Assembly: GCA_003223395.1 (NCBI GenBank)
Contig: QHUZ01000090.1
Span: 1-37,550 of the forward strand
Length of the DNA: 37,550 bases
Direction of reading: 5' to 3'
From: Gemmatimonadota bacterium
GTDB taxonomy: Bacteria; Gemmatimonadota; Gemmatimonadetes; Gemmatimonadales; GWC2-71-9
Below are positions 27,542 through 32,735 of the stretch, piece after piece (position 1 is the first letter of the stretch; every line of letters starts with the position of its first letter). The notes below the pieces were generated by a model, which was given only the letters and a program-made list of their open reading frames with translations, was not told the DNA's origin and made no database searches. Both the position numbers and the translations under genes were made by a program.

Positions 27542-28696
27542 ATGAAGCGGCTGGTTCTCCTGGTGGGATTCGTAACGTTGGTGGCGGGTCCCGCCGCAGC
27601 GCAGCGCTCGCAGAACATCGAGTTCGGCGGCTTCGGTTCGTGGTGGCGGTTTGACCGCTCGTTCCTGATCAAGAACGGGTTCGGCGGCGGCGCGCGCATC
27701 AGTTACAACTGGAGCGACCGCCTCAGCCTCGAAGTCACTGGCGACTACATCGCGACGACAAACCTGGCCGCCACGCAAAACATCACCGTCTCGACGATCA
27801 GCGGCGCTATCGTGTTGAACTTCCCGATGAACGACAAGCTGACGCTGTTCGCGACGGGCGGCTACTCGCACATGGTCTTCGGGAAGGATCCCCCGTACGC
27901 CTTTACCCAGCACCTCGTTAACGGGGGCCTCGGGTTCCGCCAGTTCATTGGCCGGCGCGTCGCGCTCCGCGGTGACGTCCGTGCGCAGTACCGCCCGGAC
28001 AATCCCTTTTACGTGGGGTTGTTTACGGGCGAAGTTCAAGGCTCCCTCGGCGTGTCCTACTTCTTCATTCCGCCGCAGCAGGGCCGCGGTTTCAATACGA
28101 ACTTCCAGTGGTACTGGGGCGCGCAGGGCGGCTTCCTGCTTTCCAAGACGAACACGCAGCCCTACGCCTATGATCCGATTGTCGGCGGCCATTGGCTGAT
28201 CACCGCGCGCCGCACCGCGCTCTACGTGGCGTACGAGCAGGCGTTCTTCCTGGCCGATGCACAGGCCGTCATCTTCGACCCGGCCTCGTCGAACTCCTCG
28301 GTCGGCCCGAGCTTCCGCGACGTCACGTTCAAGGACGTGCGCCGGCTGATGTTCGGCGTGCTCGCCTATCCGGTGCAAAAGATCATCGAGCCGTTCGCCG
28401 GCGGGGGATTTGCCCTGATGCAGGTGCTGAATCCGACGGTCGACTGCTCCAGCTGTACCACGCTCGGTGAAGCGGTCGAAGCGTCAGACCGCGTTCACGA
28501 TCAATCGAGCCGGGCATTCTTCTGGATCATGGGCGGGCTGCAGATCAACTATTCCAGCAAGCTGAACGTGTTCGCCCAGTACTTATTGACGTCCAGCGCC
28601 GCGAACTTCCTGCTCCAGAGCAACACCCACACGCTGCAGGGAGGCATTCGCCTCAGCCTCGGCACCTCCAAGGAAGGGATTACCGAACGGCACTAA
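27542..28696 (+). CDS. Outer-membrane beta-barrel protein
   Basis: A 384-residue protein. The start ATG 27542 has GGAGG just upstream. A signal peptide (MKRLVLLVGFVTLVAGPAAA, cut before QRS) precedes strand-like segments: GGGARISYNWSDRLSLEVTG, LTLFATGGYSHMVFG, RVALRGDVRAQYRP, and at the end HTLQGGIRLSLG. This is the layout of an outer-membrane barrel of the OmpW/opacity type. A CSSCT pair near residue 303 is unusual for a barrel and may form a disulphide. It lies 29 bases after the M14 gene in the same direction and probably ends the operon. The 3' end overlaps the convergent glycosylase gene by 17 bases. Function unknown; peptide uptake is a guess from context. Confidence 0.75.
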   Translation: MKRLVLLVGFVTLVAGPAAAQRSQNIEFGGFGSWWRFDRSFLIKNGFGGGARISYNWSDRLSLEVTGDYIATTNLAATQNITVSTISGAIVLNFPMNDKLTLFATGGYSHMVFGKDPPYAFTQHLVNGGLGFRQFIGRRVALRGDVRAQYRPDNPFYVGLFTGEVQGSLGVSYFFIPPQQGRGFNTNFQWYWGAQGGFLLSKTNTQPYAYDPIVGGHWLITARRTALYVAYEQAFFLADAQAVIFDPASSNSSVGPSFRDVTFKDVRRLMFGVLAYPVQKIIEPFAGGGFALMQVLNPTVDCSSCTTLGEAVEASDRVHDQSSRAFFWIMGGLQINYSSKLNVFAQYLLTSSAANFLLQSNTHTLQGGIRLSLGTSKEGITERH

Positions 28697-29267
28697 CCCA
28701 AGGTGAGCCCTTGAGATAGTACCGCAGCGGCCAGTTGGTCGCCTGCGTAATACCGATACGAGGCCCCGCGACGATATCTCGTTTGCGGGGCCTTGTGCCC
28801 TCCAGGATTCGGAGGACGCCACGCTGCAGCGACACGCCGTTCAAGGCGCCGGTGACACCCAGCGCCTCGCAAAGCCGCGCGGGGCCGGAGCAGAGCGGCT
28901 CTTTGCCGCGCCGCTTGCGCATGGTCGCGAAGCCCGCGAGCGGCTCGAGCGCCCGGATGAGGACCGCAGCCGGAAATTCCTGAGGCTCGGTCACTGCGTT
29001 GAGACACCAATGCATGCCGTAGGTGAAATACACATAGGCCGTTCCCGGCGGCCCGTAGAGCGGTTCGGTGCGGGGAGTACGCCGATGGCCGTAGGCGTGG
29101 CACGCCGGATCGTGCGGGCCGACGTACGCCTCGACCTCCACGATCCGGCCCGCGGTCTGATGGCGCCGGCCACCGACATCACTGACGAGGATGTGGCCCA
29201 ATAGCCCACGCGCGACCGATTCTGTCGGTCGCGCGTAGAACTTCGCCTGCACGGCGCTGCCTTGCAC
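28680..29267 (-). CDS. DNA-3-methyladenine glycosylase (AAG/MPG family)
   Basis: A 195-residue base-excision repair enzyme removing alkylated purines. GRIVEVEAYVGPHDPACHAY contains the catalytic Glu (Glu125 in the human enzyme, by position) and a His; RTEPLYGPPGTAYVYFTYGM and CLNAVTEPQEFPAAVLIRAL complete the active site, with CSGPARLCEALGV later on. The start is GTG 29267, two bases after the stop of the NYN/OST-HTH gene, so the two share a transcript. A second in-frame GTG six codons later is an alternative. Length is normal for bacterial members. Confidence 0.95.
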   Translation of the reverse strand: MQGSAVQAKFYARPTESVARGLLGHILVSDVGGRRHQTAGRIVEVEAYVGPHDPACHAYGHRRTPRTEPLYGPPGTAYVYFTYGMHWCLNAVTEPQEFPAAVLIRALEPLAGFATMRKRRGKEPLCSGPARLCEALGVTGALNGVSLQRGVLRILEGTRPRKRDIVAGPRIGITQATNWPLRYYLKGSPWVSAVR

Positions 29268-29269
29268 CG

Positions 29270-31018
29270 TTAGGCCTTCTCGTTCCCGCCCGTCAGGCCC
29301 CGCTTCACCCTCGACCAGAACGACTCGCCCGGCTCGGCGCCAGGCGCCGCTGGAGGCGGTGGAGGAGCTGGTCGTTCCGCAGGCGCCGGAGGAGGTGCTT
29401 GATCCAACACCGGACGCGCGCTGGGCGTCGACACCTCAGAAGACTCCGATTCAAACCGGCGCGGTCCACGACCCCGCCCGCCGCGTCCACCACGGCGGCC
29501 TCGTCCGCCGCGTTCGCCGCGCTCGGCGCGCTCGCCGTTCTCAGCGCGGGGCCCGCGATCCCTGCCACCTCGACCGCCCCGACCACCGCCACGACCGCCA
29601 CGCTCGCCTCGCTCGCCTCGCTCGCCTCGCTCTTGGCCGGATCCCGACGAGGGGGCCGTTGGGCTCGACTGACCCGCCGGGGGCTTGGGAGGCACCAAAT
29701 CGCCGCGTGGCCGGAAGTTGGGATCGACTTCCACCACGCCAATCTTGGGGATCTCGGGAGCCCCGCCCGCACCGGGCCGGCGGGCGCCACCGCGCGAGCC
29801 GCGGCGGAAGCGCGCGCTGCGCATCGGAATGCCACCCGGTGTCGACGGCGTGCTATAGGGTGGCGGCGGGGCAGACGACGTCGGCATCGGAATGTCGTCT
29901 TCGTCTTCTACATCGGGCATTGGGGCCGACAAGACCGGGCGTGGAGCCTCCTGCTCATCCGTCACCGGCTTTTCGTCGTCCTGATGAGCCGGCTCGTCGT
30001 CCGTACCCATACCGACGGCCTGCTTGATCAACCCGAACGCGCCGCCGAACGAGAACCCGGCCTTCGCGGCCGGCGCTTCCGGCTCGTCGGTCGGGGCCGG
30101 CTCAGTGGGAGCGGTTGGCGATTCTTCACGGTCGCGAGCGCCGCGTCCCCGACCCCGGCCGCCTCGCCCACCCCGGCTGCGGGGTTTCTCGGTGTCTTCG
30201 CTCATCGCGGCGAGTGCCGGCGACGCCGCCGCGCCTGCGACCTGCGGGCCGAGGGCGATTTCGTACTGCCCGTTGTCGAGTCGGGTCAACGTGATGAGTC
30301 CACGTCGGGCGGCTTCGATCACGAACTTGCTGAACCGCGAGAACCCGGCGTCCTTCTCGTCGAAGTTCGGGTCGATCTCCTGCATCACCTGCTTCAGGCG
30401 GTCCGAGCGCATGACGTCGTTGTGCGCCGTCATCTGTTTGACCGCCTCGACGACCAGCTCCCAAGGGTCGCGCTTCACGTATTCGACGTCGCTCGTCTTC
30501 GTGAAGCCCGCCAGCTCGTTGTAGGAGTAGTACTCGTCGCAGTTCTGAATGAGGAGGTCGCTGGACGATTCCCGGATCCCCACGCCGATCACGTACTTGC
30601 CGTACTCCTTGAGCTTCAGCACGAGCGACGAGAAATCCGAATCTCCGGACAAGAGAATGAAGGTTCCGATCTCCGGACGCGTAAAGACCAGCTCCAGCGC
30701 GTCGATCGCGAGGCGGATGTCGGTGGCGTTTTTCTTGTTGGCCCCGTGCGCCGGTGCAAAGATGAGATCGATGGAGGATTCGGAGAGCGGGACGATGTAC
30801 TGCGGGTAGCGGCGCCAGTCCGCGTAGGCGCGCTGTACCGCAACCTTACCCCGGATGATTTCCGACTGGAGCAGGCGTTTCAGCTCGGTTTGGAGGTCCG
30901 AGCGGATCGCCATCGTCACGTTGTCGAAGTCGATCATCAGCGCCGCATTGGGCGCGTGGGCGGGTGGTTCTTTGTGTGCGGGGCGTGGCAAATGGTTGTG
31001 AGCTTGCTGCGGTGTCAT
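29270..31018 (-). CDS. NYN (PIN-like) nuclease domain - OST-HTH/LOTUS protein with RGG-rich tail
   Basis: A 582-residue protein. Residues about 25-165 form a NYN/LabA nuclease-like domain: ALMIDFDNVTMAIRSD with Asp30 and Asp32, NATDIRLAIDALEL with an Asp, and LLSGDSDFSSLV with two more, the usual acidic metal site. Residues about 180-255 form an OST-HTH/LOTUS domain (DPWELVVEAVKQM to LDNGQYEIAL), thought to bind RNA. The remaining 320 residues are disordered: acidic and proline-rich first, then RGG and RGR clusters with ERG repeats, then a short folded end ESFWSRVKRGLTGG. I start at ATG 31018; an upstream start adds an unsupported 11 residues. Likely an RNA-processing or RNA-binding factor. 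The gene is followed by a DNA repair enzyme gene. Confidence 0.88.
   Translation of the reverse strand: MTPQQAHNHLPRPAHKEPPAHAPNAALMIDFDNVTMAIRSDLQTELKRLLQSEIIRGKVAVQRAYADWRRYPQYIVPLSESSIDLIFAPAHGANKKNATDIRLAIDALELVFTRPEIGTFILLSGDSDFSSLVLKLKEYGKYVIGVGIRESSSDLLIQNCDEYYSYNELAGFTKTSDVEYVKRDPWELVVEAVKQMTAHNDVMRSDRLKQVMQEIDPNFDEKDAGFSRFSKFVIEAARRGLITLTRLDNGQYEIALGPQVAGAAASPALAAMSEDTEKPRSRGGRGGRGRGRGARDREESPTAPTEPAPTDEPEAPAAKAGFSFGGAFGLIKQAVGMGTDDEPAHQDDEKPVTDEQEAPRPVLSAPMPDVEDEDDIPMPTSSAPPPPYSTPSTPGGIPMRSARFRRGSRGGARRPGAGGAPEIPKIGVVEVDPNFRPRGDLVPPKPPAGQSSPTAPSSGSGQERGERGERGERGGRGGGRGGRGGRDRGPRAENGERAERGERGGRGRRGGRGGRGRGPRRFESESSEVSTPSARPVLDQAPPPAPAERPAPPPPPAAPGAEPGESFWSRVKRGLTGGNEKA
29601..29632 (-). 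repeat. 9-base tandem repeat encoding ERG units
   Basis: The unit GCTCGCCTC (plus strand) is repeated about 3.5 times and encodes Glu-Arg-Gly triplets in the tail of the NYN protein. Unit length is a multiple of three, so copy number could change without a frameshift. Confidence 0.8.
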
Positions 31019-31320
31019 AACTGACTCTGTTCCTGCCCTGGGGCCGGACAAGCGCGTAGCACGTTCCTCGAAGCGAGGAACTCTACGACGCTGTCTTGCT
31101 GCGTCGGGCTCTTGGTAAAGGCGTATTGCGCCGTAGTTAAGGCTGGCTGGTGCGTGGGGAGGGTCGCCGAATCACCGCGGCGCGCCCGTGCGCGCTACCT
31201 CGACCCAATGCCGAGGACCGCAGGCGCCGCCTGATGGTTTCGACCCCTCTACCGAGGGCACTGCCAGACGAATGAACAGTTCAACTATAAACGATTGGGA
31301 CTGCAGAAGCTAGGGTTTGG
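31019..31320 (-). promoter_or_regulatory. 302-base non-coding leader of the NYN gene with strong hairpin
   Basis: No good ORF is seen on either strand. On the minus strand a TATAGT hexamer near 31284-31289 could be a -10 box, giving a leader of about 260 bases. Near the gene (31055-31087) lies a hairpin with an 8-base-pair perfect stem GTTCCTCG/CGAGGAAC around a 3-base loop, extended by CGTAG/CTACG, and with bulges to 31047-31095. Further up are GGGTCG/CGACCC arms (31158-31208 region) and CCCTC/GAGGG arms (about 31246-31258). No known riboswitch or RNA family is recognised. Confidence 0.45.
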
Positions 31321-31863
31321 CTAAGATCTTGGCTTCTCGTGATCAGTCAAAACAGGTAAGTAAGGCACCCACGGCCCGACATCGGCGCGATACTGCTTCG
31401 CCATTACGCGCGCGACCTGCGCGATGTGCCCTAGATCGTGCACCACCCAGGCCGCGAGGAGCTGCCGCAGGGTCACCGCGCCGAGGCTCGGGTGCTCGCC
31501 GGGCAGGTCGAGCTGCGCGTCGGTGAGGTGCCAGGACTCGAGCACGCGAAGGTTCTCGGCACGGAGTCGCGCGAACTCGTCGAGCAGAGAATCGAGCGTC
31601 CGCGTCACGTTTCGCGCCCGGTGACGGAATCGATCATACGGCTCGAAGCGCCGGTTGGCACCCTGCGCCAGAATGATCCGGGCGCGCGGCATCCAATCGG
31701 TTTCTTCACCGTCGATCAGGTGGCCGATATTGTCGAAGGGACTGAAGGTATCGGGTCCTTCGGTACCGCGGGCCAATTTCGTATCGATGTCCCGAAGTAG
31801 CGCACGAAGGGCGGCGGGCGTACGCTCCAGGACCTCGACGCACAGAGCAAGATTGAATTGCAT
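31321..31863 (-). CDS. DinB family protein
   Basis: A 180-residue four-helix-bundle protein of the DinB/YfiT superfamily. The metal-binding histidines are in FDNIGHLIDGEETDW and in VVHDLGHIAQVARVM (HxxxH spacing), an intact site. Members include thiol transferases and metal-dependent hydrolases; the activity here is not known. The start ATG 31863 overlaps the preceding stop by one base (TGATG), so it is coupled to the duplicated-domain gene. It is the last gene of the minus-strand run. The 302-base gap after it suggests that the run ends here. Confidence 0.85.
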   Translation of the reverse strand: MQFNLALCVEVLERTPAALRALLRDIDTKLARGTEGPDTFSPFDNIGHLIDGEETDWMPRARIILAQGANRRFEPYDRFRHRARNVTRTLDSLLDEFARLRAENLRVLESWHLTDAQLDLPGEHPSLGAVTLRQLLAAWVVHDLGHIAQVARVMAKQYRADVGPWVPYLPVLTDHEKPRS

Positions 31864-32735
31864 CAGTGCGTCTCTGCGCGCAGTTTGATCGCCGCCTCCA
31901 ACTCGCTCTCCAGCACGTTCCTCGTCTTGCACTCGTGGTCCGGCGGATCGTCGGCGGCGAAGCCCTCCACCCAGCGCACCGTGACCATCACCGTGGACGC
32001 CGTGCTGTCCCCACGCACGAACACGTTGTAAGTCGCTCGACGCGCCTCATAGGACATGCCAAGGAATTTGCCGCAGTCAGCCCACCGCCGGGCCTCGCTC
32101 CCAGGCACGTCCCACTGGTCGGTGCCAATGAACCCGCTGGCACGCTCCCACGTGCTGATTGCGATTTGACGGGCTGCGAACAGATCGAGAACGGCGTCCC
32201 ATGCACGACCGACGGAGGCGTTGACCGGTGTCGCGTCACGCGCGACCACGGTCTCTGCACCCAGCTTGATCGCCGCTTCCAACTCTCTTTCCCGCACGTC
32301 CTTCGTTCTGCACTCCACGACCTGGGGATCCTCTGGCACTCCGCCATGCGTCCATCGAACCGTCACGCTGACCGTGGACGTCGCGCTGTCCCCTCGCACG
32401 AGCACCTTGTAAGCCGCTCGATCCGGGAAAACAGGAACAATAGGGAGCGGGATGTCGGTGCTGAACTCGGTCATGCCGCAACGTTTCGCCCACCGAGTTG
32501 CCTGTCGCTCTTCTACGTCCACCGCATCCGTGACGATGAGCCCGCTGGCACGCTCCATGGTACGAATCGGTATCGCTCGAGATGCGAATGCGTCGGCCAC
32601 GGCGTCCCACGTGCGGCTGGCAGAGGCGCTGATCGGCGTCGCCTCACGCGTGACGACTTGCGCGAGCAGGGGATGACTACCGGTAACGACGGAACCGGCA
32701 AGGACAAGCGCCGTGAGTCTCATGGGAGCTTCCAT
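31863..32735 (-). CDS. Secreted protein with tandem-duplicated domain, unknown function
   Basis: A protein of about 290 residues with a signal peptide (MRLTALVLAGSVVTGSHPLL). The mature part is two copies of a unit of about 120 residues. Copy 1 starts ATPISASASRTWDAVADAFA and ends ELEAAIKLGAETV; copy 2 starts ATPVNASVGRAWDAVLDLFA and ends ELEAAIKLRAETH. Shared marks are ERASG(L/F)I, Y(K/N)V(L/F)VRGDS(A/T), V(S/M)VTVRW and (R/K)T(K/R)(D/N)V. I do not recognise the fold; the pattern (a helix, then strands with SGLIVTD and VTVRW) resembles lipocalin or BamC-like secreted modules. The start may be this ATG or the one four codons later. It lies within two bases of the upstream gene. Confidence 0.75.
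   Translation of the reverse strand: MEAPMRLTALVLAGSVVTGSHPLLAQVVTREATPISASASRTWDAVADAFASRAIPIRTMERASGLIVTDAVDVEERQATRWAKRCGMTEFSTDIPLPIVPVFPDRAAYKVLVRGDSATSTVSVTVRWTHGGVPEDPQVVECRTKDVRERELEAAIKLGAETVVARDATPVNASVGRAWDAVLDLFAARQIAISTWERASGFIGTDQWDVPGSEARRWADCGKFLGMSYEARRATYNVFVRGDSTASTVMVTVRWVEGFAADDPPDHECKTRNVLESELEAAIKLRAETH

Follow-up and report, generated by a model that had tools for sequence, protein, structure and literature searches.

A NYN/OST-HTH protein with an RG-rich tail, preceded by a conserved structured leader and paired with an MPG gene in Gemmatimonadota

The DNA stretch analysed here (hereafter the window; 37,550 nt, GenBank contig QHUZ01000090.1, our contig C10) belongs to a 3.41-Mb assembly whose closest relatives are Gemmatimonadota. 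It bears on the minus strand a gene at 29270-31018, starting with an ATG common to the genus, which encodes a 582-aa protein with an NYN nuclease domain, an OST-HTH/LOTUS winged helix and a long tail rich in arginine-glycine (RG) pairs. Genus alignment revealed a conserved leader of 302 nt (31019-31320, minus strand) in front of its start codon, and the MPG/AAG 3-methyladenine DNA glycosylase gene (28680-29267, minus strand; PF02245, E-value = 6.7e-66) starts 2 nt past its stop codon. We give an even chance to an overall reading in which this protein is an RNase whose RG-rich tail acts as a scaffold, and in which a cis-regulatory leader drives its expression with MPG co-transcribed. According to this scheme, the NYN core would be a metal-dependent endoribonuclease for which the LOTUS winged helix chooses the RNA, while the RG-rich disordered tail, with its fixed motifs and C-terminal helix, would offer a multivalent scaffold for RNA and partners; the genus-specific structured leader would control NYN-MPG expression in cis, and the MPG gene would be co-transcribed with the NYN gene. 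An earlier note on this DNA had described the NYN/OST-HTH protein with its RG-rich tail and a DNA repair gene two bases downstream. What it observed is confirmed and its interpretation is partly supported; its reading had been made to depend on conservation of the leader and on relatives having the tail, and both hold.

The NYN (PIN-like) domain is N-terminal (residues 25-165, 30524-30946; PF01936, E-value = 1.3e-25). Residues D30, D32, N33, D100, D106, D126 and D128 are invariant in alignments of 59 and 61 relatives, and 116 window residues, the NYN aspartates among them, are conserved in at least 98% of the 61 aligned proteins. Between the window and relative L032 the core is 100% identical over 259 residues, with only 59% identity at 4-fold degenerate sites. 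Because its acidic residues are invariant, the NYN core is predicted to be an active metal-dependent endoribonuclease; human MARF1, which likewise has NYN and LOTUS domains, depends on an acidic cluster of this kind to act as an endonuclease (PMC6294520), the comparison being made at the level of the cluster. The OST-HTH/LOTUS region (residues ~184-258, 30245-30469) scores below the Pfam gathering cut-off (17.9 vs. 23.8 bits), but its predicted structure is a winged helix with a predicted local distance difference test (pLDDT) score of ~95, and it matches solved LOTUS domains in Foldseek (e.g., TDRD7, 3rco/2lh9) with a probability of 0.97-0.99, all E-values being >0.001. By analogy with its domain families, the winged helix would bind and select RNA. 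An N-terminal NYN domain, acidic active-site residues and an OST-HTH domain after the nuclease are all present, and the protein is a clade-specific form of the bacterial LK-nuclease (DUF88/NYN)/OST-HTH family, whose members are likewise predicted to be stand-alone RNA-degrading enzymes (PMC2848206). It differs from them in its long RG-rich tail with fixed motifs and in the loss of a second OST-HTH-like domain. With MARF1/limkain b1 it shares an NYN endoribonuclease and LOTUS domains in one chain, the activity being predicted here, but it is prokaryotic, lacks RNA recognition motifs and has one LOTUS domain where MARF1 has eight (PMC6294520). An open reading frame (ORF) of 541 codons runs antisense to the gene (29399-31024, plus strand) and is most likely a by-product of GC-rich coding.

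Searches detected the NYN core in 57 of 61 close relatives and, across the phylum, in 186 of 200 sampled genomes; it was not found in any of the six sampled genomes outside class Gemmatimonadetes; the NYN/OST-HTH gene is thus a core gene of that class. Little work has been done on RNA decay in this phylum, and bacterial NYN/LOTUS proteins, which are kin of animal germline RNA regulators, become testable here in a setting where almost every genome has them as a very strongly conserved core gene. Most genomes of families f4-f9 of the class presented two NYN-core matches, which suggests a second paralogue outside the focal order.

The tail comprises 323 residues with 24 RG, 10 RGG and 6 ERG, while composition shuffles gave 7.5 RG and 1.3 RGG. 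Its first RG-rich block spans residues 281-294 (30137-30178), and the main RG/RGG/ERG block, partly built of 9-bp repeats and with a net charge of ~+12, spans residues 462-521 (29456-29635). Closely spaced triple RGG repeats (tri-RGG) are a criterion for RGG/RG RNA-binding proteins, and repeats of this kind (RGGRGGGRGGRGG) occur in the tail. Between the blocks lie the short motifs RFRRGSRGG (29786-29812), conserved across the order, and PEIPKIGVVEVDPNFRPR (29705-29758), found by aligning relatives; two motifs of the tail, RFRRGSRGG and PEIPKIGVVEVDPN, are fixed. The C-terminal helix motif GESFWSRVKRGLTGG (29285-29329) is shared by 19 of the 20 close relatives that are complete; of the more distant relatives, 15 end in another helix of the LFKRMSAAL kind and 27 have neither helix. 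The idea that another protein of the genome shares this C-terminal motif was dropped, as its pattern occurs in the NYN protein only. The earlier note had taken the disordered RGG tail for an addition. The tail is indeed there, but it is not simply added disorder, because in most relatives a second folded LOTUS-like domain occupies this place, which the subclade of the window has lost, and RG richness is specific to a clade. This second winged helix is found in the tail of nearly all complete relatives and matches the first one in profile comparison (probability 93%, E-value = 3e-7); in L046 it was modelled with pLDDT ~78-96 and shows the helix and strand order of the first. The window and seven relatives of the same genus retain only about the first 30 of its 78 positions, including in the window the remnant of its first helix (FSFGGAFGLIKQAVG, 30011-30055), the domain being intact in relatives. 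Since the whole domain is present in L039, which has diverged furthest within the genus, trimming most likely took place within the genus. L100, L101 and L110 also gave no match to the second LOTUS-like domain, possibly through independent losses.

The 9-bp tandem repeats of the RG block, together with the variation in length and RG content among relatives, would also fit a tail that is a neutral, GC-driven low-complexity extension created by repeat slippage, with no role in RNA granules. We regard this as unlikely, as a long tail (at least 191 aa) with conserved motifs is kept in all complete relatives, the RGG count far exceeds composition shuffles, and Arg and Gly codons are mixed. A scaffold tail brings to mind RNase E and its bacterial ribonucleoprotein bodies (BR-bodies), which share with our protein an endoribonuclease, a disordered C-terminal arm with short motifs and a structured 5' untranslated region (5' UTR); here, however, the catalytic domain is unrelated, the tail is RG-rich, and the genome has a separate RNase E/G. 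The latter is a short form of 542 aa without the C-terminal scaffold arm, which may leave room for a scaffold role of the NYN tail but does not show one. The proposal that the NYN protein substitutes for a missing RNase E was dropped as stated, since RNase E/G is present, though short. This RNase E/G (L112, 1015-2643) has a disordered G/N-rich and R-rich insertion in place of the long C-terminal arm. RGG repeat clusters in a disordered region are also found in eukaryotic RGG proteins of RNA granules; the tail differs in having few aromatic residues (9 in 323). Formation of condensates by the protein is a guess, somewhat less probable than not.

Across nine same-genus sequences, identity of the leader to that of the window is 69-89%, with 4-fold degenerate sites at 45-59% in seven of eight comparisons and at 83% for the closest relative, L033. 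Of the 71 pairs in the consensus fold of the leader, 11 show compensatory changes, while shuffles gave 3.8 ± 1.3 and none of 500 reached 11, in line with the covariation among relatives that the earlier note had proposed to look for. Paired cells amount to 95% in the consensus fold vs. 37-47% when the partners are slid. The fold energy is mildly unusual (z = -2.06), and conservation with compensatory changes is the better evidence for the leader. The earlier note had placed a strong hairpin near the start of a 302-base leader. While the leader is conserved and structured, the strong 19-nt hairpin (31063-31081, with 5 of 8 pairs changed on both sides) lies ~45 nt before the ATG and the largest stem is found at 31142-31268 (model R1, 41 bp in the model). 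The consensus fold also contains the hairpin CGACGC..GCGTCG (31086-31106) and the small invariant hairpin GGCG-CAATA-CGCC (31120-31132). In each of 10 same-genus genomes the covariance model of the main stem detected a single copy, which in every case lies before NYN; elsewhere it gave three marginal matches. It also finds L043 and L045 with an E-value of ~1e-8, again before NYN. Because a -10-like element, TATAGT, is present at 31284-31289, the transcribed leader is probably ~258 nt long. This putative element matches the conserved GTTTATTTTCAA upstream of an acyl-CoA synthetase gene in sister genera, and a sigma-70 promoter scan of the leader region called nothing, TATAGT included. A coding upstream ORF was ruled out, as close relatives differ by indels whose lengths are not multiples of three, and so was a repeated genomic element, the leader being single copy per genome; a G-quadruplex serving as bait for LOTUS was also rejected, with one G4-like match in nine leaders and zero in the window.

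These data suggest that the leader may be regulatory in cis, placing production of the RNase under the control of RNA structure. Autoregulation through the 5' UTR is established for another RNase gene, rne (PMC10989929), and a conserved structured 5' UTR in cis, as in rne-like control, appears to be present here too. On the other hand, the leader could be read by something else (a ribosomal protein, small RNA, temperature or ligand) or could only stabilise the messenger, with no self-regulation of the RNase. We place this alternative just short of an even chance. The leader structure is conserved only before NYN, yet no observation links it to the protein, relatives without such a leader have an almost unaltered NYN/LOTUS core, and Rfam gave no family match to the leader up to E = 1, whereas the precedent of rne speaks for self-regulation. 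Feedback of the NYN protein through its own leader is accordingly put forward as a guess, somewhat less probable than its absence.

Regarding the origin of the leader, an acyl-CoA synthetase gene, named by eye from its N-terminal and C-terminal sequence, shares a few bases with the start of NYN in many sister genera. Because the overlap also occurs in more distant genera, the synthetase-NYN order is likely ancestral. In L040, L044 and L046 the synthetase sequence is kept with internal gaps. A profile of the synthetase promoter and first codons matches the stretch before NYN in L043, L045, L048, L052 and L056 (E-values from 8e-10 to 1e-5, the best value from shuffles being E = 1). With the focal leader profile, matches were obtained in L045 (E-value = 1e-11) and L043 (E-value = 4e-8). 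From these intermediates we infer that an acyl-CoA synthetase gene once headed the operon and was deleted, and that its promoter and 5' end gave rise to the leader, which was afterwards retained as a folded RNA. This looks like a case in which the rise of a structured RNA leader out of what a deleted gene left behind can be traced. Loss at differing stages in L040, L044, L046, L043 and L045 would also suit a leader that consists largely of decaying synthetase remains and owes its conservation solely to the promoter and ribosome-binding site. This is quite improbable and already disfavoured, as the leader body exceeds 4-fold-site identity across the genus, several helices show compensatory changes, and the structural model extends to L043 and L045. 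Retention as a folded RNA could be carried one step further, so that what had been the promoter and initial codons of a metabolic gene, since deleted, became a leader bound or cleaved by an RG-tailed RNase, making the latter a self-limiting, granule-forming RNA-decay factor; such a full chain of events is unlikely. Upstream of the synthetase gene, L047, L049, L050, L051, L053 and L041 bear a well conserved promoter-like element, GCAAGTTGTTTATTTTCAAAG, which is possibly a typical Gemmatimonadota promoter.

Several observations weigh against the overall reading of a scaffold-tailed RNase under a cis-regulatory leader. The NYN domain is poorly modelled (pLDDT mostly <60), so that its fold rests on Pfam. 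RG richness is limited to a clade, with a median of 23 RG in relatives above 86% core identity and of 8-9 RG in those below 82%, and consequently is not needed for the ancestral function; the 9-bp repeats also contribute to the RG block. The shuffle control for compensatory pairs leaves relatedness in. Finally, direct comparison of the focal leaders with the synthetase 5' end gave a best E-value of 0.0015 (L038), the rest not being significant, and because of this weak similarity the proposed origin depends on the intermediates.

The MPG gene was found in 162 of the 200 phylum genomes and, among the matches listed, lies on the same strand just downstream of NYN in 111 of the 119 genomes with both, the spacing from NYN core to MPG in the paired genomes corresponding to the tail length. 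In several of the eight exceptions the NYN gene is located where a contig ends, and in G059 the two genes seem to be genuinely unlinked. Anantharaman and Aravind (2010) reported no conserved neighbourhood of the family with other RNA-processing systems (PMC2848206), whereas here the neighbourhood is conserved class-wide, which adds a gene pairing where the founding paper found no informative one. The earlier note's idea of a stress-linked unit stands as far as the link to MPG is tight and deeply conserved, but the link is not obligatory, since several genera (e.g., g29) have NYN but no MPG. Several complete genomes (G037, G054, G155) likewise have NYN without MPG, and G127, G136 and G200 have MPG without NYN; because either gene can be kept alone, the pair is usual rather than obligatory. 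Judging from gene order, co-transcription would couple the dosage of the two genes more than prove a common pathway. Same-strand adjacency in 111 of 119 genomes across the class could also reflect a single stress or alkylation-repair pathway, in which, for instance, alkylated RNA is degraded while MPG repairs DNA. We consider this improbable, given the genomes with only one of the two genes and an acyl-CoA synthetase gene that is equally tightly linked in sister genera with no obvious common pathway.

Concerning the rest of the locus, the minus-strand order is a DinB_2 gene (31321-31932), the 302-nt gap, the NYN/OST-HTH gene and MPG. PADLOC matched no known anti-phage defence model and identity as a defence system was dropped, as was a plasmid origin, which gave no match. 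A secreted-type protein with a Lipoprotein_18 (NlpB/DapX) match is encoded at 31863-32735 (minus strand) and looks like a tandem duplication of a single unit (ATPISASASRTWDAV... / ATPVNASVGRAWDAV...).
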